Shown in pieces: positions 2,681 to 36,153 of a stretch of 37,179 nt of DNA (position 1 is its first letter; every line of letters begins with the position of its first letter). Made by a program: the position numbers and the translations under genes. Under the pieces are notes generated by a model. That model made no database searches. It was not told the DNA's origin and saw nothing but the letters and a program-made list of their open reading frames with translations. Source of the DNA: Elusimicrobiota bacterium (lineage in GTDB: Bacteria; Elusimicrobiota; Elusimicrobia; UBA1565; UBA9628); contig JAHFCE010000030.1 of assembly GCA_023249675.1 (NCBI GenBank), positions 1 through 37,179 of the forward strand, written 5' to 3'.

Positions 2681-4255
2681 ATGAAAAACGTTCGACAGAG
2701 ACTTGCCCTTGCATTCAGTCTGAGCCTGTGCGCTTTCACCGGAGCTCAAGGCGCGGTGCCCGCGGACATCACCTACCAGGGTTCGCTCACGGACGGCGGA
2801 GTCTCCGTCAACGCGACCAGGACGATGTCGTTTCGCCTCACCAATCAGGACGGCACGGTCGAGTATTGGAACAGCGGAGCCAAGAGCGTGGCCGTGGCCA
2901 ACGGCGTCTTCCATGTGAAGCTGACCCCGACCGGGGTGGCTTGGCACGACATCGCCCCGTACATCGAGGTGACGATCGCCGGCCAGCTCTTGCTCCCGCG
3001 CGATCCCGTCCTCACCACTCCCTACTCGCTCGTCGCCAACCGGGTGGCGGATTCCGGCGTCACCGCGAGCCAGATCGCTTCCGGCCAGATCAGCGACGCA
3101 CATATCGCGGCCAACGCCGGCATCGCCCTCTCCAAGCTCGCGAAAGACCCGTCCGCGCCGGGCACGATCAATACCTCGACGAACCCGATTCACTGGACGC
3201 AGCTCAAGGGGGTCCCCGACTTGGTTCTCACCGGGGGCGTTGGTCCTAAAGGCGATAAGGGCGACACGGGTGCTGTGGGTCTGCAAGGCGTCCAAGGTTC
3301 GACCGGCCCCGCTGGTGCTGATGGCGCGGCTGGCGCCACTGGAGCGACTGGTCCCAAGGGCGACACGGGTGCTGTGGGTCTGCAAGGCGTCCAAGGTTCG
3401 ACCGGTACAACTGGGGCGACCGGCGCCACGGGCGCCACCGGACCCGTGGGCCCCACGGCTTTGGTCGGCGATGTCACCGCCACGGGATCAGGGTCCGAGG
3501 TCGTGACCGCGACCGTGGCCTACGTCGGCGGCGTGAGCGCCGCGAACGTGGCGGCGGGGGCGACCTTGGCCAATGCGGCGACGAACTCGAATACCGCCTC
3601 GGCCATCGTCAAGCGCGACGCCTCCGGCAATTTTACGGCCGGGACGGTCACGGCGTCCGCATTCTCCGGCGACGGAGCCGGTCTCTCGAACCTCAATGCC
3701 GGCAATCTCTCATCGGGACTGGTCGCGACCAGCTTGGGTGGGACCGGGGCGAATCTTTCCGGCGCCGCCGCGGGAGGAATTTCTTACTTCGTCGCGGGGG
3801 GAACGACAGCCGCTTCAGCGGCCGGCTCCTCGGGAAACGTTCTCACCTCCGGCGGCGCGGGCGCTCCCTCATGGACGGCCGCCGACAGCGCGAACACGAA
3901 CAACACGATCGTCAAGAGAGACGGCGCCGGAAGCATCAGCGTCAGCACGATCACGGTCGCCAGCAATGCCAAGGTCTTGTTCGGCTACACCATCAACGTC
4001 AATACGCTGGCGAGCAACGGGGCGAGCGTCAGGGCGGGCTGCGGTGGAGGATCGTTGGTCGCTATTGGAGGGGGATGCTCCAGTCCGAGCGCTAAAAACG
4101 TGCAAAGATCTTATCCTTCGACTCAAACGGACAACAGCACCTCGGTCGGGACCGCCGTTTCAAACGGGGCCACGACGGCCGGCTCCTGGAGCTGCCTCCT
4201 GAGCGGCAACGACGTGCATTCCGCCTACGTCATCTGCGCGCGCGTGGGCAACTAA
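2681..4255 (+). CDS. Secreted collagen-like (Gly-X-Y) repeat protein
   Basis: 524 residues. A signal peptide (cleavage near 'AQG-AVPAD') is followed by a ~150-residue beta domain ('ITYQGSLTDGGVSVN') found at the start of many phage-tail-like or surface fibre proteins. A triple-helix region of Gly-X-Y triplets (about residues 187-264, rich in GPKGDKGDTG and GATGATG) comes next. Then come Ala/Gly/Ser/Thr/Asn-rich fibre repeats ('AIVKRDASGNF', 'TIVKRDGAGSI'), and a C-terminal domain with four cysteines (CGGG, GGCS, SCLL, ICAR). AAAGGTGG precedes the ATG. It is probably an exported trimeric fibre or adhesin. The stop overlaps the convergent ABC ATPase stop by 4 nt, leaving no terminator between them. 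Confidence 0.85.
   Translation: MKNVRQRLALAFSLSLCAFTGAQGAVPADITYQGSLTDGGVSVNATRTMSFRLTNQDGTVEYWNSGAKSVAVANGVFHVKLTPTGVAWHDIAPYIEVTIAGQLLLPRDPVLTTPYSLVANRVADSGVTASQIASGQISDAHIAANAGIALSKLAKDPSAPGTINTSTNPIHWTQLKGVPDLVLTGGVGPKGDKGDTGAVGLQGVQGSTGPAGADGAAGATGATGPKGDTGAVGLQGVQGSTGTTGATGATGATGPVGPTALVGDVTATGSGSEVVTATVAYVGGVSAANVAAGATLANAATNSNTASAIVKRDASGNFTAGTVTASAFSGDGAGLSNLNAGNLSSGLVATSLGGTGANLSGAAAGGISYFVAGGTTAASAAGSSGNVLTSGGAGAPSWTAADSANTNNTIVKRDGAGSISVSTITVASNAKVLFGYTINVNTLASNGASVRAGCGGGSLVAIGGGCSSPSAKNVQRSYPSTQTDNSTSVGTAVSNGATTAGSWSCLLSGNDVHSAYVICARVGN
3257..3405 (+). repeat. Two identical 50-bp direct repeats in the collagen-like region
   Basis: Bases 3257-3306 and 3356-3405 are identical. 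The 99-bp offset equals 33 codons or 11 Gly-X-Y triplets, so the duplication keeps both frame and triplet register. It probably arose by recent slippage or recombination and could change in length. Confidence 0.9.
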
Positions 4256-25722: not shown

Positions 25723-25748
25723 GAGCGCTCTCGAAGAAAAGCGCGCTT
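25721..25748. other. Two short palindromes between convergent genes
   Basis: GAGAGCGCTCTC (25721-25732) and AAGCGCGCTT (25739-25748) overlap the stops of the methyltransferase and the M50-fusion gene respectively. On the minus strand the second is followed by TTCTT. They may serve as a weak two-way terminator. Confidence 0.3.
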
Positions 25749-27744
25749 AACCGGCGAGTTCCTGGGCCAGGGACAGCAGGCTGATGAACGCGACGCCGGC
25801 GACCACGGCCCAGCCCAGCGCGTCGGCAGCCCGGAAGGACAGGACTTGGGACAGCGGCCCCAACGCAAACATACGATAGAGCATCCCCGCCAGCGCCGAG
25901 GCGGCGGCCGTGTATGTCAGAGCCAGCAGCCCATAAGCGAGCTCCGCTCCGTGGCCGTCCAGACGGCCGGCGCGCAGGGCCCGCGGCAGGTCGCGCGCCA
26001 GCCAGCGCACGCTGCGGCGGCGCAGGTTGGGGCGCTCGAGCAGATCCTCGAGGGCGTAGTAGCCGTCGTACTCGAGCAGCGGATTCAGGTTGAACAGCGC
26101 CGTCGCGTAAAGACCGAGGGCGAATATCCATGAGGCGGCGGCGAGCAGGGAGGCGGGCGGCAGCAGCCGGCAGGCCAGGGCCGCGAGGCCGGCCAGGATC
26201 GCCTGGGCGTAAAGCCCCGCCAGGCTGACCGCGATCCTCGGTCCGCGCCCGGCCAGCCACATGTCGGAGGTGTCGACGAAAGCGATCGGCCCGAACCAAT
26301 ACCAGCCCACGCCTCCGGAAGGCACCTCGCGGCCGAAAGCTTTCACGGTGAAGGCATGTCCGGATTCGTGGATCAGCACGCCCGCGATGGCCGCCGGGAT
26401 CAGGATGAACCACAGCGTAGGATTGCTCCAGTGTCCGGCGAGGGCCGCCCGCGCGGAGGAAGCGCCGGCGGCGAAGACGAGGAGTCCCGCCGCCGCGATC
26501 ACCGCGAGCGCCGCCTGCCCGGTCCTCGTGTACAGACGACATACGCCATCGCGATAGAGACGTGTGAGGACGGGGTCCAGGCCATGCAGGGACAGGCGCC
26601 ATTCCATGACGCGTCGGACCCGGATCAAGGCGGCCTGCCACCATGAGGCGCGCGAGAGGCTATGCAGGATGTCGCCGCGCAGGCGCCCGCCGTCGAGAAA
26701 GCCCGCTTCTGAGAGGCTGATGAGCACGTCGGAGACCGTCTGCGGGGCGAAGACCTTGAAGGCGGCCATGAACTCGAGGGTCAGCTCGCGCAAAGTCCGC
26801 CGGCCGTCGAGCTTCTGCCAGAGGAACCAGCCCTGCCGGGACAGGCGGAAATACGCCGGCCGCGCGGGGTCCTTGAGCGTGACGATGACGTCGTGGTCGG
26901 CGGTGGCGCGCTCCTGGGCGACGACGCCGGGCTTCCTTGCGGGGCGCTCGCGCAGGCGCAGCAGGCCGACCATCCGGCTGCCCACGTCGGTTCCAGACCC
27001 CATCGCCTCGAGCAGGTCCCGGCGCCGCATGACCAGCAGCTCGCAGGGTTCCAAAGCGCGCACCGTCGCGTTGCGGGGTGCTTCGGTCAAGAGGGCCGCC
27101 TCGCCGAAGACAGCGCCTGCCTCCAAGGCGGCCAAGGTCCGTCCTTCCGCCGCGACCTCCACGCGGCCGCGGCGCAGAAGATAGCAGGCGTCCCCCGCCT
27201 GGCCCTCGGTAACGATCGCAGCACCCGCCTCGGCCTGGAGGCGCTGGAGGCGCGCGGCGAGCCGCCGGGCTGGGGCGGCGTCCAGGGCGGTGAACGGGGT
27301 CGCCTGCTTGAGGAACTTCGCGATCCTCAGGATTTCCGCGTTCTCTTCGAGCGCCGCCTTGAGGTTCGGGTTGGACGCCAGCAGGCGGTCGAAGGCCGCG
27401 GCATTCAGCGTGAGCGTCACCAGCGTTGTGGTCGCCGTCACCGTCGCCTGGCGCCGGCGGGAAGAGTCGAGCAGGGCCAGCTCGCCGAAGAGCTCTCCCT
27501 CGCTGAGCGACGCCAGAAGGATGCGCCCGGAGGGGCCCGTCGTCGTCGCTTCGGCGCGGCCTGCGGCCAGGAGATAGAGCCCGTCGGCGAGCTGGCCTTC
27601 CTCCGTGACTAGAGCGCCCGCCGGGAAGCGCTCTTCGCCGAAAGACTCCGCGAGCTTTTCGATGACCGGCGCCGGCAGCGCCGCGAAGGCCGGCGTCCTG
27701 GCCGCAAGGAGCCGGCGACGTGCGAGGGGGATCGAGGCGCTTAT
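25747..27744 (-). CDS. Fusion: 2x cNMP-binding domain, PqqD-like domain, M50 intramembrane metallopeptidase
   Basis: 665 residues from the proposed AUA start. Domains: first cyclic-nucleotide-binding domain (~10-140; cassette 'FGELALLDSSRRRQATV'); second (~150-245; 'FGEAALLTEAPRNATV'); a PqqD-like winged-helix/RRE domain (~285-352; 'YFRLSRQGWFLWQKLDGRRT', 'VSDVLISLSEAGFLD'); then an M50/S2P-type membrane peptidase with zinc site His459-Glu-x-x-His463 (HESGH) and second motif 'NLNPLLEYDG' (Asp560). About eight membrane spans. B. subtilis YydH, an M50 protease in a peptide (YydF) system, is the nearest functional parallel I know. The RRE should bind the precursors encoded upstream; the M50 core would cleave or export them; the paired sensor domains suggest nucleotide control. 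Last gene of the cassette. Confidence 0.87.
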   Translation of the reverse strand: MSASIPLARRRLLAARTPAFAALPAPVIEKLAESFGEERFPAGALVTEEGQLADGLYLLAAGRAEATTTGPSGRILLASLSEGELFGELALLDSSRRRQATVTATTTLVTLTLNAAAFDRLLASNPNLKAALEENAEILRIAKFLKQATPFTALDAAPARRLAARLQRLQAEAGAAIVTEGQAGDACYLLRRGRVEVAAEGRTLAALEAGAVFGEAALLTEAPRNATVRALEPCELLVMRRRDLLEAMGSGTDVGSRMVGLLRLRERPARKPGVVAQERATADHDVIVTLKDPARPAYFRLSRQGWFLWQKLDGRRTLRELTLEFMAAFKVFAPQTVSDVLISLSEAGFLDGGRLRGDILHSLSRASWWQAALIRVRRVMEWRLSLHGLDPVLTRLYRDGVCRLYTRTGQAALAVIAAAGLLVFAAGASSARAALAGHWSNPTLWFILIPAAIAGVLIHESGHAFTVKAFGREVPSGGVGWYWFGPIAFVDTSDMWLAGRGPRIAVSLAGLYAQAILAGLAALACRLLPPASLLAAASWIFALGLYATALFNLNPLLEYDGYYALEDLLERPNLRRRSVRWLARDLPRALRAGRLDGHGAELAYGLLALTYTAAASALAGMLYRMFALGPLSQVLSFRAADALGWAVVAGVAFISLLSLAQELAG

Positions 27745-28748
27745 GGGGCCGTCTCCTGGCGCTTGGGAAAGAAGGAAGAAGCGTCGATCAGCGCCGCCAG
27801 CTCGCCTTGGGCGGGTTCTCGTGCGCCGGCGCGCGCAAGCGCGGCCTGGGCCCTGCGGCAGTGCAGCTCGACGATGATCGCGCACCTTCGGAGCTCTCCG
27901 GCCGCCAGCAGGCGCTTGCGCACGGCCTTACGGGCCGACTCGCTGCGCCGGGCCTTGTCCAATAACGCTAAGAAAGCGCGGCGGCCGGTCCGGGACTGAT
28001 TTTCGAGATGCAACGCAATCGGCAAAGTCCGCGTCCCGTTGGCGAGATCGCTGCTGCGGCGGGCCTGGAAAAGGTCGTGAAAGTCGGAGGCAAGCTGACC
28101 CGCCGTTCCCAAGGACCTGCCCATGGAAGCGTAGGCCTCCACGGCCGCCGTGGAGGCGCCCGCCAATCGCGAGGCCAGCGCGGCGAAGAGAGCCAATTCC
28201 TCGCCGCTTTTGCGGGCGACCGAAGACTCCACCTCGGCGGCGGAGACGCGCGTGGCACCGGCCGTGGCCAGGTCGCGCTGCTGGCCGGCACTCATGGTCA
28301 ACAGGCCATCGGCCAGGATCCGCTGAAGGTCGGCGATCGTCTCCGGCGGGGCGTCGAGCTCCGAGAGGGCGAGTTGGGGCAACGCGGAGATCAAGGTGAC
28401 GGCGGCGAGATTGATCTCGGACTCCTTGCGTCCCTTCCAATGCCGGGGAAGGTCCCCGTCGGCCAGGTCATCAAGGATGTCGATACCCAAATAAAGGATG
28501 GTTGTGGCGACAGTCAAGGGCAGCGCGGGCTTATTCTCGCCGCGCACGGCGGCGTAGACCAAGAGGGGCAAAGCCATGAACGGCGGGGGAAAGTCCATCT
28601 CGCGCAGTTGCGGGCGCAGCCCGCGCAAGGCGAGGGCCAGCAACGCGCGCTGCTGCCCATCCCGGGACCGCTCGGAAGCGAAAGCTTCGGCGCGCCGCAA
28701 GAGCTCCTCGGCGCGTTCCGCGGACCAGAATGGCCTTGGTTCGGTCAC
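27741..28748 (-). CDS. Polyprenyl-synthase-like protein, ComQ-type candidate peptide prenyltransferase
   Basis: 335 residues, all-helical trans-isoprenyl-synthase fold. The first Asp-rich motif DDLAD (93-97) is intact. The second is SDFHD (221-225), with the first Asp replaced by Ser. Other family marks are present: 'GQQRDL' (~155-160), 'KSGEELALFAALASRLAG' (~180) and 'DLANGTRTLPIAL' (~234-245). Canonical synthases make farnesyl/geranylgeranyl diphosphate; ComQ, with a degenerate second motif, instead prenylates the ComX peptide on Trp. The gene starts at GTG five bases after the last peptide gene's stop and has no Shine-Dalgarno, so translation is coupled. Placement between three peptide genes and an RRE-peptidase favours a ComQ-like role, but plain prenyl-diphosphate synthesis is the alternative. 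Confidence 0.8.
   Translation of the reverse strand: MTEPRPFWSAERAEELLRRAEAFASERSRDGQQRALLALALRGLRPQLREMDFPPPFMALPLLVYAAVRGENKPALPLTVATTILYLGIDILDDLADGDLPRHWKGRKESEINLAAVTLISALPQLALSELDAPPETIADLQRILADGLLTMSAGQQRDLATAGATRVSAAEVESSVARKSGEELALFAALASRLAGASTAAVEAYASMGRSLGTAGQLASDFHDLFQARRSSDLANGTRTLPIALHLENQSRTGRRAFLALLDKARRSESARKAVRKRLLAAGELRRCAIIVELHCRRAQAALARAGAREPAQGELAALIDASSFFPKRQETAP
27742..27757 (-). promoter_or_regulatory. RBS and AUA start of the M50-fusion gene
   Basis: On the minus strand AGGAG (27757-27753) is followed by 8 nt and ATA (27744-27742). This ATA overlaps the upstream TAA as ATAA, the geometry of a normal ATGA coupling. No ATG, GTG or TTG lies in frame near the start of the first domain, so either AUA is used or the base at 27742 differs from the ancestral one. 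Confidence 0.5.
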
Positions 28749-29846: not shown

Positions 29847-30857
29847 ATGTTCTCGCTGATCGTCCTCAATTACAACGGCGACGAGCTTCTTCGGGAATGC
29901 CTCGAGTCGATCGCGGCCCAATCCGACCGCGATTTCGAGCTGCTGCTCATCGACAACGCTTCCACCATCCCTTGGCGCCATGCGTTGCCCGCGAGTCTTC
30001 AGAACCAGACGGTCGTTCTTGAGAATGAGTCCAACCTCGGCTACGCCGAGGGTAATAACGTGGCGATTCGCCGGGCCCGCGGGACGTGGGTGGTCCTGCT
30101 CAACAACGACGCGGCTTTGGAGCCCGACTTCCTCGCGCAGGCGCGGCGGATGATCTCGGAACATCCGGGATACCGGATGTTCGCTCCCCAGATCGTGGTG
30201 CGCGACGCCCGGGAGATCATCGACTCCGCCGGGGTGGGGGTGTTTTTAGACGGGACCTCTCGCTGCCGCGGCTGGCAGGAGTCCCGACGGGCCTATCAGC
30301 AGCCGGCGGAAGTGCTGGGGCCGGTGGGTTCCGTCGCGATCTATCACCGCGAGATCTTCTCCGAAGTGGGCTTATTGGATCCGGATTTTTTCTGCTACCT
30401 GGAAGACAGCGATCTGCTTTTGCGGGCGCAGTGGATGGGCTATCGCGCGCTGTACTGCCCCGTCTTGCGGGCCTTTCATTCCAAATCGAGCACGTTGGGC
30501 GTGGCGACTCCGCAAAAGGCCTATTTGGTCGAGCGCAACCGAATCTGGGTGGCGGTCAAAAATTTTCCGCTCTCGCTCCTTCTTCTCAGCCCCCTGATCA
30601 CCTTTTTTCGCTACGCCTTGCAGGCGTGCGCGGCCGCCTTCGACATGGGCATCGCCGGGCGTTTCGTGCGCAGTTACGCCTGGTTCCAGCTGCCGGGCAT
30701 ACTGTTTCACGCCTATCGGGACGCCGGGGTCCTTTTGCCCAGCATGATCCGCAAAAGACGGGAGATCCACCGGACGCGGCGCGTCAGTCGTCTGCGGTAT
30801 CTGGCGATGCTTTGGCGGTTCCGGCTCACGTGGAGAGACTTTGCGCTTAAAGAATAA
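29847..30857 (+). CDS. Family 2 glycosyltransferase (rhamnosyl/galactosyl type)
   Basis: 336 residues with a GT-A fold: 'LIVLNYNGDELLRECLESI', 'DNAS', 'NLGYAEGNNVAIRRARG' and the DXD-type 'LLNNDAALEPDF'. The acceptor-side motif 'FFCYLEDSDLLLRAQWMGYR' follows. A hydrophobic C-terminal segment ('SLLLLSPLITFFRYALQACA') suggests membrane association. Members of this WbbL-like branch add a sugar to lipid-linked glycans in the cytoplasm. No clear Shine-Dalgarno. The gene overlaps the next by 17 nt and likely builds the glycan transferred by the downstream GT-C proteins (inference). Confidence 0.9.
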   Translation: MFSLIVLNYNGDELLRECLESIAAQSDRDFELLLIDNASTIPWRHALPASLQNQTVVLENESNLGYAEGNNVAIRRARGTWVVLLNNDAALEPDFLAQARRMISEHPGYRMFAPQIVVRDAREIIDSAGVGVFLDGTSRCRGWQESRRAYQQPAEVLGPVGSVAIYHREIFSEVGLLDPDFFCYLEDSDLLLRAQWMGYRALYCPVLRAFHSKSSTLGVATPQKAYLVERNRIWVAVKNFPLSLLLLSPLITFFRYALQACAAAFDMGIAGRFVRSYAWFQLPGILFHAYRDAGVLLPSMIRKRREIHRTRRVSRLRYLAMLWRFRLTWRDFALKE

Positions 30858-32556
30858 GCTGGCCATCTTTTCCATTTTGGCGGCCTGTTTCGTCGGCTAC
30901 GGCAACTCGCTGACCAACGGCTTTGTCCTGGACGATCGCCTTGTGATCGTCTCGAATGGAAAAGTGACGGCTTTCAAGGTCGGCGAGATTCTCAGCCGTC
31001 CCGCCTGGCTCGCGCTCAAGGACGACAAGGGCTGGCGGCCCTTGTCGACTTTGAGCTTCGCGCTCGACTGGAAGTGGCACGGGTCCGAGGCTTTCTGGCC
31101 CCGATTTGAGAACATCGTGCTGCATGCCGGGGTTTGCGTTCTTATCCTTATGCTGGCGCTCGAGCTCGGATTTTCCCCTTGGGCGGGGCTGTTCGCGGCG
31201 CTGCTTTTCGCGCTGCATCCGATCCATACCGAAGTCTTAAATCCCATCGTGGGCCGCAGTGATCTTCTGGCCGCGTTGCTGGGCTTGCTGACGGTTCTCG
31301 GCTTTCTGCGCGAAAGTTTTCCCGCGACGCTTCTGCCGTTTGTCCTCGGTCTGTTTGCCAAGGAGAGCATACTCGCGCTCGGTTTTTTCTTCCCACTGAT
31401 TATTCACTGGAGGACTTCACGAGGATGCGATCGGGGGAAGCGCCTGACCCTTTTGGCCGCGCTCGGGGGCGTCTTCATCCTCTATATGATCCTGCGCAGG
31501 CAGGTCACGGGGATCTGGCTGCCTGGATCTGGGGACACTTCATTTTTGGACAACCCCCTGATCGCGGCCGGGGCTTTGCGCCGGGTTTCCAATGCCGTTT
31601 TCGTCCTCTTTCGATATGGACTGCTTCTGTTGGTTCCGTGGCCGTTGTCCTCGGACTATTCCTATGACGCGATCGCCGTCCTTCCGGCGTTGTCCGCGCG
31701 CAATGTCGCCGCGGCAGGGGCGTTGGTTCTTGCGGGTTTCGGCTTATGGCAATGGGCGCTCAAAGACAAGCGTGTCGGCTTTGCCGCCGCTTTTTTTTCC
31801 GCCACACTGTTCTTGGTCTCCAATATCCCTTTTCCCATCGGCACGATCATGGGCGAGCGCCTGCTGTATCTTCCCTCGGTCAGTTTCTGTCTGCTGGCCG
31901 CCCTGGGTCTTGAGCGCGCGCCGCGAAGAGCACGCGCCGTCGCGGCGACGGTGATTCTCAGCGGCTACGGCGTTCTGTGCTGGAATCGCAATCGAGATTG
32001 GGCAGACGACTCATCGGTGTTTCTGGCCGCGCTGCGCTCAAGCCCCGGCTCCATCAAGGCGATGACCAACGCCGGCTACGCATATCTCGCGCTCGGCCGC
32101 CCCAAGGAGGCTCGGCGCGAGCTGCTGCGCGCCGTCGCCAAGGACGGGCGCTACGCCTTGACCCACAGCACCTTGGCGCTCGCCTATCGAAAATTAGGCG
32201 AACCCGCGAAGGCGGAGGCGGAACTCAAGACAGCCTTGAGCTTTGAGCCTGAATTCATGGACTGCTGGGTCAATCTCGGCATTATCTACGGCGAGACCGG
32301 ACGGCTCGATGCCTCCTTGGATGCGTTCGGCAAGGCCCTGGCCTTGGAGCCGGACAATGCCGAGGTGCACAGCAATATGGGAGTCACGTATAAACGCAGG
32401 GGGATGCAGGCGCTCGCGTCCGGCCGGAAAAGCCAGGCGGCCGACGATTTCAGCCGGGCGTTAGCGCAGTATCAGCGGGCTTTGGATCTGAACCCCGGCT
32501 ATCAGCAGGCGATCAAGAATCTGGAAGCGTTGCGTGCCGTGATGACCATAAGATAA
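30841..32556 (+). CDS. TMTC-like GT-C membrane protein with TPR repeats
   Basis: 571 residues. TTG start with GGAGAG about 4 nt upstream, inside the GT2 gene. The N-terminal half has ~10 membrane spans with TMTC-type marks: the first-loop acidic pair 'FVLDDRLVI' (Asp31-Asp32), 'GWRPLSTLSFALDWKWHG', and 'ALHPIHTEVLNPIVGRSDLL' (~125-142). From ~395 to the end are four to five TPRs. TMTC proteins O-mannosylate cadherins in animals, using dolichol-phosphate mannose; bacterial homologues are uncharacterised. The conserved acidic pair suggests an active glycosyltransferase using a polyprenyl-phosphate sugar, perhaps from the DPM1-like enzyme at 35425. Confidence 0.85.
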   Translation: MRLKNKLAIFSILAACFVGYGNSLTNGFVLDDRLVIVSNGKVTAFKVGEILSRPAWLALKDDKGWRPLSTLSFALDWKWHGSEAFWPRFENIVLHAGVCVLILMLALELGFSPWAGLFAALLFALHPIHTEVLNPIVGRSDLLAALLGLLTVLGFLRESFPATLLPFVLGLFAKESILALGFFFPLIIHWRTSRGCDRGKRLTLLAALGGVFILYMILRRQVTGIWLPGSGDTSFLDNPLIAAGALRRVSNAVFVLFRYGLLLLVPWPLSSDYSYDAIAVLPALSARNVAAAGALVLAGFGLWQWALKDKRVGFAAAFFSATLFLVSNIPFPIGTIMGERLLYLPSVSFCLLAALGLERAPRRARAVAATVILSGYGVLCWNRNRDWADDSSVFLAALRSSPGSIKAMTNAGYAYLALGRPKEARRELLRAVAKDGRYALTHSTLALAYRKLGEPAKAEAELKTALSFEPEFMDCWVNLGIIYGETGRLDASLDAFGKALALEPDNAEVHSNMGVTYKRRGMQALASGRKSQAADDFSRALAQYQRALDLNPGYQQAIKNLEALRAVMTIR

Positions 32557-32563
32557 ACTCGCG

Positions 32564-35416
32564 ATGATGCGCCTTTGGGGACGGTTGGCCTTCCTCTTTT
32601 TTCTGGGACTCGGCGTGCGCAGCCTCTCCCTTCCGCAGGCTTTCCGGGGCGGGAACGTCCATTTTCTGGGCAATGACGGCTGGTACCAGATGCGCCGCAT
32701 CGAGTTCGCCGCCCGGCACAACTTGGCGCTGCCTGATCCGGACCCCTACTTAAACTATCCGGAAGGCGGGCGCAGTCATTGGGGCCCTCTCTTCAGCCAA
32801 GGCATCGCGCTGACCTCGACCCTGTTGGGGGTCGACCCGCAGAACCGCCATGCTCTTGAGACTTTCGCAGCCTGGGTTCCCGCGGTCCTGGGGGCTCTGT
32901 GCGTCTTGGTCGCCTATGGCATCGGCGCGTTGCTTCTGGGCCCTCCGATCGGCCTGGCCGCGGGGATATTGGTGGCGATCCTGCCGGCCCACGTGGAATA
33001 CTCGCTGCTGGGAAATTTAGATCACCATGTCGCCGAGTCCTTGTTGTTCGGCCTCGCCAGTCTTTTAATCTTGAGGCTGCGCGGACTCAAAAAGTCTGCT
33101 GGGACCTGGCTTTGGAGCCGAGAGGAGTTTGTCTGGACGGCGGCGGGGGGTGCGGTGCTGTGGCTGCTGTTTCTGCTGCTGCCTTCGGTGGCGGCCATGT
33201 ACGCCGGCCTGCTCTGGGTGGTCTGTCTGGGGGAAACTGTGCGCGGCGGCCGGCTGTGGCCGATCTTCGCCTTGCCCGCTCTGTTGTTGATTCCAAGCGC
33301 ACTCTCCTCTTTGCAGGCGGCGGGGGAGGTCCAGCGGTTCAGCGCCGTGCCGCGCTGGCTTATGTTCGAGCAGTTCTCCTTTTTTCAGCCGCTGCTCCTG
33401 GCTTTCTGCGCCGTCGCGCTGAAATTGATCGAGGAGCTTGAGGCCACTCGGCGGGCGGACGCGCCAGCGGCGTCCGGGCCGCGCCTGGCGCGTTTGAGCG
33501 TCTATGCTGTCGGCTGCGGAGCGCTGGCCGTCCTGCTCGCGTGGCCCGTCGCGGCCGGTCTTCAGGGCGTCTTGAGGGGCTCTCTCTGGATCAAATACAT
33601 CGGGGAATACCATCCCCTACTGATGCCTTACGCCGATCCCGTCTTGAATTTCTCGTTCGCTTTCAAGATGTGCTCTTACCTATTCCCGGCATTTCCGTTC
33701 CTTTACTACTGGATCGGCGTCAAAGAGAAAGATCCCTTTGTGTGGATCTGGCCGCTGCTGCTTTTCGTTCTTGTGATGCTGCAGCTGCGCTACATCTATC
33801 TCTTCGCCTATCCCCTGGCTCTTTTGATCGCGGCCGCGGCCGTTCGCCTCTCGCGGGAGAGGCCCGGCTGGAAGGCGTTGATCGCCATTGCGCTCCTGAT
33901 CGTGCTTTGGCCCTGCGGGCGTTGGCTGTGGAGCCTTTCCGCGGGCAGCCCTTTTCGCTACCCGACCCTCTCCGATCAGGATTACGCGATGCTTCAGACT
34001 CTCGGTCAGAAAAGTCCGCCGACCGTGGGCTACGACAACGCTTCGGAGCGTCCGGAATACGGAGTCTTGGCGCCTTGGGGGCTCGGCCATGCCGTCGTTT
34101 ATTTGGCCCGCCGCCCCGTCGTTGCCGATCCGTTCGGACATGGCGTGGAAAAGGAGGCCCGCTACTACACCGCCCAAACGCCCGCGCAGGCTCTTGCCGT
34201 TCTCCGGGAGAACCGCGCGCGTTACGTGGTCGGCGAGGATGTCAGCAATCCGTTCTTAGGCCGCATCTACGCAGACGTGCTGGCGTTGCCTGAGACTCAT
34301 CCGCTGAGGCGCGGTCAATGGGACCGGCTCTTCCAGATGCGGCTTCTGGCGAGCCTCCCTGTCTTGGGGCCCGACGGCAAGCCCTCGGCGTGGGGGCATA
34401 AGCTCCTCTATCGTTCGCCGGAGGGGCAGGCGAGCCTCTACGAGTTCACAGATCTTGGTGCGTTGCCGGCGGCCACGCCGTCTAAGCCCAAGGCTTCTTC
34501 ATTCCGCCCCAGCCGCATCCCATCTCCTGCCCAGCCGGCTCGGCCTGTCCCTCAACCGGTCAAGCCCGTGCCGCCGACGAGCCCGATCGTGGCTTCCATC
34601 GGCGACAAAGGCCGCGTCAGCGAGAAAGACCTCGCCGACTTTATCGCCGCGGAGAGCTGCTATGGGTCGGATGCCCTGAACTCCCGCAAGGCGGGCTTCA
34701 TGAGAATGCTCGAGACGGCGATCATGGAGGAGGTCATGCGCCGCGAGGCCGGCCTCGAGTTGACCAAGGCCGACTATGAAAAAGAGGGCCAGCGTATCGA
34801 TCGGGAAACCCGCGCGCCCGAGATCCTGGAGTGCGTCAAGAAATACTTCACCGAGGACGGCCGCGGGCGCTACGAGCGCGTCTTTCTCCGCAAGAACATG
34901 ATCGCGGGTCCTTTCCACCGCTTTCTCCAATTCGATCCCAAGGTGCAGAAGCAGGCCTACAATATTCGGGACCAGGTCCTGGCCAAGTCCCGGCAGGGGG
35001 AGTCCTTTGTGGACCTGGCCGCGGAATTGAAGATCGGCTACTCAACGCGGACCTATACCCTTGAGGAGCCCAGGGAAGACAAAAAAGAGTATATTAAGGA
35101 AAGAGCTGCAGCGCCTTCTCCCACGCTGCGCTGGTCGCCCTTTGAGAAGCAGTTCATCGAGGATCACCTGAAGGCCCTCGCGCCCGGACAAATGAAGCCC
35201 GAGCCCGTCGACTCCTACGACATTCAGTTTTTCCGCCTTTTGAGCAACGACGACGGGAGATACCGTTTCGAGTCCCTTCGGATCGACAAGAAAAACATCA
35301 GGGATTATTTCTCGTCCATCCCGAAGCTGCGCTGCGCGATCAAGGATCCGGAGCTGAAGGAGTGGATCCGAGGCATTCCCGGCAATCCGATGCTGTCCGC
35401 GCTCGACCTGGAGTAG
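32564..35416 (+). CDS. STT3/AglB/PglB-type oligosaccharyltransferase fused to SurA/parvulin-like domain
   Basis: 950 residues. Residues 1-460 are polytopic membrane with STT3 marks: metal-site 'DGWYQMRR' (Asp38), 'LGNLDHHVAESLLFG' (Asp153-His-His) and 'YIGEYHPLL' (Glu348, TIXE-like). Residues ~460-635 are periplasmic, with 'APWGLGH' (503-509) in the place of the WWDxG peptide-binding motif. A Pro-rich linker (638-674) leads to ~275 residues resembling a SurA N-terminal domain ('IVASIGDKGRVSEKDLADFI') and a degenerate parvulin domain ('SFVDLAAELKIGY', 'FEKQFIEDHLKALAPGQMKP'). It would transfer a lipid-linked glycan to protein while a chaperone-like domain holds the substrate. The fusion looks unusual. 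No clear Shine-Dalgarno; ATG 32567 is an alternative start. Confidence 0.85.
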   Translation: MMRLWGRLAFLFFLGLGVRSLSLPQAFRGGNVHFLGNDGWYQMRRIEFAARHNLALPDPDPYLNYPEGGRSHWGPLFSQGIALTSTLLGVDPQNRHALETFAAWVPAVLGALCVLVAYGIGALLLGPPIGLAAGILVAILPAHVEYSLLGNLDHHVAESLLFGLASLLILRLRGLKKSAGTWLWSREEFVWTAAGGAVLWLLFLLLPSVAAMYAGLLWVVCLGETVRGGRLWPIFALPALLLIPSALSSLQAAGEVQRFSAVPRWLMFEQFSFFQPLLLAFCAVALKLIEELEATRRADAPAASGPRLARLSVYAVGCGALAVLLAWPVAAGLQGVLRGSLWIKYIGEYHPLLMPYADPVLNFSFAFKMCSYLFPAFPFLYYWIGVKEKDPFVWIWPLLLFVLVMLQLRYIYLFAYPLALLIAAAAVRLSRERPGWKALIAIALLIVLWPCGRWLWSLSAGSPFRYPTLSDQDYAMLQTLGQKSPPTVGYDNASERPEYGVLAPWGLGHAVVYLARRPVVADPFGHGVEKEARYYTAQTPAQALAVLRENRARYVVGEDVSNPFLGRIYADVLALPETHPLRRGQWDRLFQMRLLASLPVLGPDGKPSAWGHKLLYRSPEGQASLYEFTDLGALPAATPSKPKASSFRPSRIPSPAQPARPVPQPVKPVPPTSPIVASIGDKGRVSEKDLADFIAAESCYGSDALNSRKAGFMRMLETAIMEEVMRREAGLELTKADYEKEGQRIDRETRAPEILECVKKYFTEDGRGRYERVFLRKNMIAGPFHRFLQFDPKVQKQAYNIRDQVLAKSRQGESFVDLAAELKIGYSTRTYTLEEPREDKKEYIKERAAAPSPTLRWSPFEKQFIEDHLKALAPGQMKPEPVDSYDIQFFRLLSNDDGRYRFESLRIDKKNIRDYFSSIPKLRCAIKDPELKEWIRGIPGNPMLSALDLE

Positions 35417-35424
35417 GCGGGCCC

Positions 35425-36153
35425 TTAGTCGAAGCGCGACTTGACGATGGACCAGAGGATGCCGACCCCGTCTTTCCAGGTGATCTTCTTTCCCTCCGCA
35501 TAGGATCGCGGTACGTAGGCGATGGGGACTTCCATGATGCGCCATTCCCTTCTCAGGATTTTGCAGAGCAGCTCGTTATCGTAGTTGAAACCATCGCTGT
35601 CCACGGTAATAGAGTCGATGACTGATTTCTTGAAGACTTTATAGCCGCCGTAATAGTCCGTGGCATTGTGGCCGTAGAGAAGGTTGGTGAGGCCCGTGAT
35701 CGCGAGATTGCCGATGTAGTGGGAGAAGAAGGGGGAGCGGCTTTTTCCCCAAAAGAAGGTCGGTCTTTCGGAAGCAAATCGCGAACCCATCACCACGTCC
35801 GTGCGGTCATCCAGAATAGGACGCAGCAAGGCCGCGTAATCCGAGGGGCTGTATTCCAGATCCGCGTCTTGAATGAGCAGTATCTCCCCGGTCGCTGCCG
35901 CGAAGCCTGTTTTAAGAGCGGCTCCTTTGCCGCGATTGCTCGCGTGAAAGAGAGCCTTGATCCCCGGGAGGCCTTGAAGAATGGCCGCGGTCCAGTCCGT
36001 GGAGCCGTCGTCCACGACGATGATCTCGCGCTCCAGGCCTGGGAGAGGAGTTTGGCGGACTCTCTCAATGACCTCCCGGATCGTTGCTTCTTCGTTGTAG
36101 GCGGGGATGACGATGGAGAGCTTGCGCACGTTGATGTTGACAGCCCCCTTCAT
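35425..36153 (-). CDS. DPM1-like polyprenyl-phosphate glycosyltransferase (GT2)
   Basis: 242 residues. Marks: 'LSIVIPAYNEEATIREVIE', 'EIIVVDDGSTDWT', 'ASNRGKGAALKTGF', the DXD 'LIQDADLEYSP', then 'VMGSRF' and 'DYYGGYKVFKKSVI'. No C-terminal membrane helix, as in single-domain DPM1. It should make polyprenyl-phosphate mannose or glucose from a nucleotide sugar, the donor used by GT-C enzymes such as the TMTC-like protein. The ATG at 36153 has no Shine-Dalgarno; a GTG at 36126 (before 'RKLSIV') is possible. It is convergent with the oligosaccharyltransferase, 8 nt apart. Confidence 0.9.
   Translation of the reverse strand: MKGAVNINVRKLSIVIPAYNEEATIREVIERVRQTPLPGLEREIIVVDDGSTDWTAAILQGLPGIKALFHASNRGKGAALKTGFAAATGEILLIQDADLEYSPSDYAALLRPILDDRTDVVMGSRFASERPTFFWGKSRSPFFSHYIGNLAITGLTNLLYGHNATDYYGGYKVFKKSVIDSITVDSDGFNYDNELLCKILRREWRIMEVPIAYVPRSYAEGKKITWKDGVGILWSIVKSRFD

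Follow-up and report, generated by a model that had tools for sequence, protein, structure and literature searches.

Protein glycosylation and protein folding compete with each other. In bacteria, Campylobacter PglB is a single-subunit STT3-type enzyme, for which we know of no described chaperone tail. As a rule, proteins with SurA, PrsA or LIC12922-type folds act as chaperones, and they can do so without PPIase activity. In eukaryotes, the Ost3/Ost6 subunits of OST modulate folding, leading to better site accessibility (PMC8518210). For the bacterial pathway, the same 2021 paper states that no folding modulator had been described (PMC8518210).

The stretch of DNA analyzed here (the window; 37,179 nucleotides) belongs to an Elusimicrobiota genome of 2.6 Mb that is 98.6% complete (G000). 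It harbors a gene, single-copy in this genome, whose product joins an STT3-type oligosaccharyltransferase to a predicted SurA-like domain. The initial annotation of the window knew of no described example of such a protein and, in line with this, our literature search, which had incomplete coverage, found no paper that deals with Elusimicrobia glycosylation or describes an STT3-SurA fusion.

Results

The STT3 part and its acceptor pocket

The fusion gene runs from an ATG start to a TAG stop in a single frame of 950 codons, uninterrupted by stops. Its features are:

32564..35416, + strand: whole gene, STT3-type oligosaccharyltransferase with a SurA-like, putatively periplasmic domain (950 aa; layout recurs in G039 and G041)
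32564..34450, + strand: residues 1-629, STT3/AglB-type membrane part and AglB-like globular core (PF02516 and PF22627 above cut-off; colinearity with Archaeoglobus fulgidus AglB)
32675..32677, + strand: D38, first DXD motif, GND (alignment with A. fulgidus AglB; motif definition, PMC8342417)
33020..33028, + strand: D153-H154-H155, second DXD motif, DHH (same alignment; PMC8342417)
33605..33607, + strand: E348 in a TIXE-like motif, Y-I-G-E, equivalent to A. fulgidus AglB Glu360 (alignment; PMC8342417)
34073..34087, + strand: PWGLG at the WWDYG position, residues 504-508, preceded by A503 (alignment; motif role, PMC8342417)
34451..34585, + strand: Pro/Ala-rich linker, residues 630-674, 45 aa (composition)
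34586..34933, + strand: SurA N-domain-like helical part, residues 675-790 (AlphaFold2 model, fold matches)
34658..34660, + strand: Cys699 (domain Cys27), invariant in 22 relatives (alignment)
34832..34834, + strand: Cys757 (domain Cys85), invariant in 22 relatives (alignment)
34949..35287, + strand: degenerate parvulin-like part lacking the catalytic His positions, residues 796-908 (model, fold matches, hhalign, alignment)
35297..35413, + strand: C-terminal strand/helix segment, conserved in the family, residues 912-950 (alignment, model)

In a Pfam profile search, residues 1-629 matched PF02516 with 36.2 bits (cut-off, 24.5) and the AglB core PF22627 with 41.1 bits (cut-off, 27); the NCBIfam model TIGR04154 gave the fusion protein a score of 232, which is under its cut-off of 450. 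A profile of four relatives was colinear with the solved A. fulgidus AglB over residues 15-612 (E value, 3e-21), with an alignment that fades past residue 558. The profile matches thus extend over both the membrane part and the globular core. Eight clear transmembrane segments were detected by simple hydropathy, and the STT3 superfamily has 13 helices. Both DXD motifs and the TIXE/SVSE Glu of the superfamily are present: D38, D153/H155 and E348 align with Asp47, Asp161/His163 and Glu360 of A. fulgidus AglB, the metal ligands and the TIXE Glu, and all four residues are retained in six of six members of the STT3 clade to which the fusion belongs. The marks named in the initial annotation (Asp38, Asp153-His-His, Glu348 and APWGLG) were therefore confirmed at their residues. 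By profile and catalytic motifs, we assign the fusion protein to the STT3 superfamily, and its STT3 part looks catalytically competent.

The WWDYG motif of canonical N-X-S/T oligosaccharyltransferases, part of the Ser/Thr pocket (PMC8342417), is replaced by PWGLG, which is without the first Trp and the Asp, and therefore the fusion is not classed as an N-X-S/T-specific enzyme. N-X-S/T cannot be taken for granted as its acceptor rule and, judging from the motif, the enzyme could even be inactive on such sites. The other two fused proteins described below have PWSLG and PWSMG, whereas the unfused STT3s of the clade retain the pocket Asp (PWDFG and QWDSG). Since more distant Elusimicrobiota STT3s are also degraded at this position (LHDYG, LHDVG, DSNAG and PPEFG), we rejected the lost Asp as a hallmark of fusion.

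Fold and sequence of the tail

The STT3 part is followed by the Pro-rich linker that had been predicted for this protein (44% Pro+Ala) and by 276 residues (675-950), which were said to look like SurA_N plus a degenerate rotamase. These residues had no sequence match in Pfam, NCBIfam or the PDB, and neither SurA_N nor Rotamase of Pfam matched the tail above the curated cut-off; CHMP2A (0.063) in the PDB sequence search was judged a chance match. However, the predicted structure spoke for the annotation. The AlphaFold2 model of the tail, built from a 22-sequence alignment, has a mean pLDDT of 90.9. With this model, the top three Foldseek rows were all of the SurA/PrsA/PPIase type, the best being PPIase chains 8hm3/8hm4 (8hm3: E value, 4.9e-4; probability, 0.98). 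By structural re-alignment (VIA), the first 11 rows were all PPIase, SurA, PrsA or LIC12922-type proteins, with Z values from 10.0 to 4.8, among them the following:

SurA 8pzv: Z 8.3, 157 residues, rmsd 5.5
PrsA 6vj2: Z 8.2, 130 residues, rmsd 4.5
SurA 2pv3: Z 7.4, 126 residues, rmsd 3.8
SurA-like LIC12922 3nrk: Z 7.4, 133 residues, rmsd 5.0

Row 7, 9a7d (YRVJ-YACD model), was counted among the SurA/PrsA-type rows because we take YacD to be a PrsA-like protein. The Z values of the tail are 7 to 10, the longest matches have a large rmsd (multidomain flexibility), and a Z value below 8 can be chance for any single row; the argument for the fold is that the top rows are all of one kind. From rank 12 downward, the rows (PAS, GAF and chemoreceptor domains, with Z values of roughly 3-4) are unrelated and were taken as background.

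At the sequence level, Rotamase_3 was found weakly in 3 of the 22 tail relatives (best E value, 0.017). Using hhalign, the tail family was compared with individual SurA/PrsA-type proteins encoded in the same genome, of which one gave a partial in-register match, one a weak match and one nothing. The in-register match, to a PpiC-type protein (P = 0.0067), pairs GADFSALA with GESFVDLA and LKPGEIK with LAPGQMK. No His is conserved across the 22 members, and therefore the catalytic parvulin His pair (HIL in the first strand, G-x-H-I in the last strand) is gone. CYG and TRAP motifs are strongly conserved across the 22 members, and the invariant Cys699 and Cys757 may form a disulfide. We conclude that the tail, as modeled, has a SurA/PrsA-type parvulin chaperone fold, yet it is not classed as SurA or as an active parvulin. 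The full-length model (four sequences; pLDDT, 43.7) was too poor to place the tail relative to the active site.

The fusion in other Elusimicrobiota

The layout of STT3, linker and SurA-like domain was found in three genomes of one family, G000 (950 aa), G039 (1042 aa) and G041 (985 aa), with linkers of 45, 101 and 80 aa, respectively. Thus, the survey of STT3 proteins for this architecture was positive, and the suspicion that two genes had been joined by a sequencing error in the linker is ruled out by its recurrence in three genomes with differing linkers: the fusion is genuine. It is rare (3 of the 341 genomes of the phylum examined). Identity among the fusions is alike in both halves (STT3, 54%; domain, 55-57%), and the three fused STT3s form one clade (support 95/99).

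In G038, the layout is split. Here, a 100-aa Pro/Ala linker joins the domain to a single transmembrane (TM) helix, and its gene is directly followed by a GT2-TMEM260-TPR gene and then by that for a 799-aa STT3 (L010:9765-12164, + strand). The last 150 residues of this STT3 (about 640-799) run colinear with the beginning of the domain (97 columns; P = 5e-4), and we read this C-terminal stub as a probable decayed, shortened copy of the SurA-like domain. With a full copy of the domain two genes upstream of the stub-bearing STT3, the fusion is apparently being undone or duplicated in this genome, in which a second, tailless STT3 is found 3 kb beyond. G200 encodes the TM-anchored form of the domain directly upstream of a GT2-TMEM260-TPR gene. 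Together with the domain of G201, the fused and TM-anchored ones make up one domain clade (support 99/98), and five of its six members are tied to genes for membrane protein-glycosyltransferases. All four genomes that carry the STT3 clade of the fusions have the domain.

Stand-alone relatives of the tail

Relatives of the tail were detected in 23 of the 341 genomes, all of one class, and a scan of GTDB genome contigs, which was pattern-based and reaches close relatives only, returned Elusimicrobia/Elusimicrobiota MAGs only. Most genomes with the domain have no STT3 of this clade, showing that the domain can do without the transferase. Where it is neither fused nor of the TM-anchored form, the domain is exported and starts with a signal peptide or an N-terminal TM segment. 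Since the genome of the window also encodes several ordinary SurA/PrsA-type PPIases, the tail would be an extra, dedicated one.

Neighbors were counted at 13 domain loci with wide flanks. Eight of them had, on the same strand, a gene whose product belongs to a single cluster of large surface proteins rich in beta structure (Kelch, fn3, beta-helix), and three more had Lcl_C-type proteins. A chaperone serving large secreted proteins would be expected to have such neighbors. They suggest that the clients of the stand-alone copies are large secreted beta-proteins rather than outer-membrane barrels.

Two observations were made alongside. At L041, L042 and L043, tandem Lcl_C (Legionella collagen-like C-terminal) genes lie downstream of the domain gene. 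In the window's own genome, an open frame of 6673 aa contains over 40 Kelch motifs (G000:C49:36400-50211, - strand).

Gene neighborhood in the window

The genes around the fusion gene make up a plausible protein-glycosylation cluster:

27741..28748, - strand: polyprenyl synthetase, possible lipid carrier supply, 4 kb upstream of the fusion gene (PF00348)
29847..30857, + strand: GT2 glycosyltransferase (PF00535)
30841..32556, + strand: 571-aa TPR membrane protein, weakly TMTC/PMT O-mannosyltransferase-like (GT-C; TMTC_DUF1736 and PMT below cut-off, TPRs strong), ending 8 bases ahead of the fusion gene
35425..36153, - strand: GT2 glycosyltransferase, downstream of the fusion gene (PF00535, 133 bits)

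Elsewhere in the window, a protein with a terminal FlgD_ig/Por_Secre_tail-like sorting domain (78-833, + strand) is directly followed by a PorV/UPF0164-like outer-membrane protein (830-1999, + strand). This pair suggests T9SS-like secretion in the source organism; L008, L036 and L049 also have relatives of the PorV-like protein close to the domain gene. The window further contains a 524-aa protein with collagen-like repeats (2681-4255, + strand; PF01391) and a 712-aa open reading frame (25747-27885, - strand) that unusually combines a pair of cyclic-nucleotide-binding domains with a PqqD-like domain and a weakly matching M50 peptidase domain.

Discussion

On balance, we lean toward a model in which a tethered SurA-like chaperone, devoid of parvulin catalysis, holds exported chains in an unfolded state close to the STT3 active site. 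The STT3 part would move a lipid-linked glycan onto exported proteins at the outer face of the inner membrane, and its flexible Pro/Ala linker would carry the SurA-like domain at the C terminus. Because of the STT3 topology, the tail should lie outside the cytoplasm. There, it would bind unfolded, newly exported chains, probably of large secreted beta-rich proteins, and keep them unfolded and near the active site, so that sites otherwise buried by folding would be glycosylated. Chaperone activity, substrate class, the coupling of folding to glycosylation and the activity of the STT3 part are all properties that we infer from sequences, models and gene order. The initial annotation had proposed that a chaperone tethered to the transferase presents unfolded outer-membrane proteins for glycosylation; taken as a whole, this reading is partly supported.

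The loss of parvulin catalysis, the strong conservation of CYG, TRAP and like motifs across the 22 members, and the fact that stand-alone copies are closely linked to genes for one class of secreted protein would also fit a docking module. Derived from a SurA fold, such a module would bind an acceptor or a partner such as the export machinery or a single giant secreted protein, and would position the transferase with no effect on folding. We regard this as possible but clearly the less probable case, since folds of this type are generally known as chaperones even when they have no PPIase activity, and since neighbors as varied as Kelch giants, Lcl_C proteins and GT-C enzymes better fit a general client binder. 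Alternatively, the tail could act as a chaperone independently of glycosylation, with the STT3 serving as a mere membrane anchor after a chance fusion. Related copies do sit on a plain TM helix with a like linker, and most domain copies are unlinked to any STT3. However, the fusion was retained in three lineages with similarly identical halves, and the unfused TM form shares a cluster with STT3 and a TMEM260-like enzyme in G038 and adjoins a TMEM260-like enzyme in G200, which makes a mere anchor unlikely.

Two further readings concern the pocket. The STT3 part may no longer glycosylate peptides and may instead use another acceptor or hydrolyze the lipid-linked glycan, in which case the role of the tail would differ. 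The contrast at the pocket between the three fused proteins and their Asp-retaining unfused relatives could be taken in this sense, but D38, D153, H155 and E348 are present in all six clade members, and degraded WWDYG motifs in other Elusimicrobiota STT3s show that such loss also occurs outside the fusion; we consider this very improbable. Because the motif that recognizes the sequon Ser/Thr has lost its first Trp and its Asp in the fused enzymes, it is also conceivable, albeit a long way from probable, that acceptors are now chosen by chaperone binding in place of sequon reading, with the SurA-like domain selecting whole clients and site specificity relaxed.

The fusion of a transferase with a SurA-like domain suggests that, in some uncultured Elusimicrobiota, folding control is coupled to glycosylation. 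Eukaryotes handle the conflict between folding and glycosylation with separate OST subunits, and an STT3-SurA-like fusion would be a bacterial answer to it. The linker would offer a simple genetic test, and an STT3-chaperone fusion is a potentially useful part for bacterial glycoprotein production.

Compared with known systems, the fusion protein is like A. fulgidus AglB and archaeal AglB generally (TIGR04154, PF02516, PF22627) in its membrane part, GND and DHH motifs, TIXE Glu and globular core, but it has PWGLG for WWDYG, and a linker and SurA-like domain after the core. With Campylobacter PglB, likened here by description, it shares being a single-subunit STT3-type protein in bacteria and differs in its chaperone-like tail. 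The predicted fold of residues 675-950 is that of SurA, PrsA, LIC12922 and kindred periplasmic chaperones of the parvulin type; unlike these, the tail has no above-cut-off Pfam match or conserved catalytic His, contains two invariant Cys and is joined to a glycosyltransferase. In principle, the arrangement resembles Ost3/Ost6 (N33/Tusc3) of eukaryotic OST, accessory domains modulating acceptor folding near STT3 (PMC8518210). However, Ost3/Ost6 are thioredoxin-fold oxidoreductases and separate subunits, whereas the fusion carries a SurA-like fold within the same chain.
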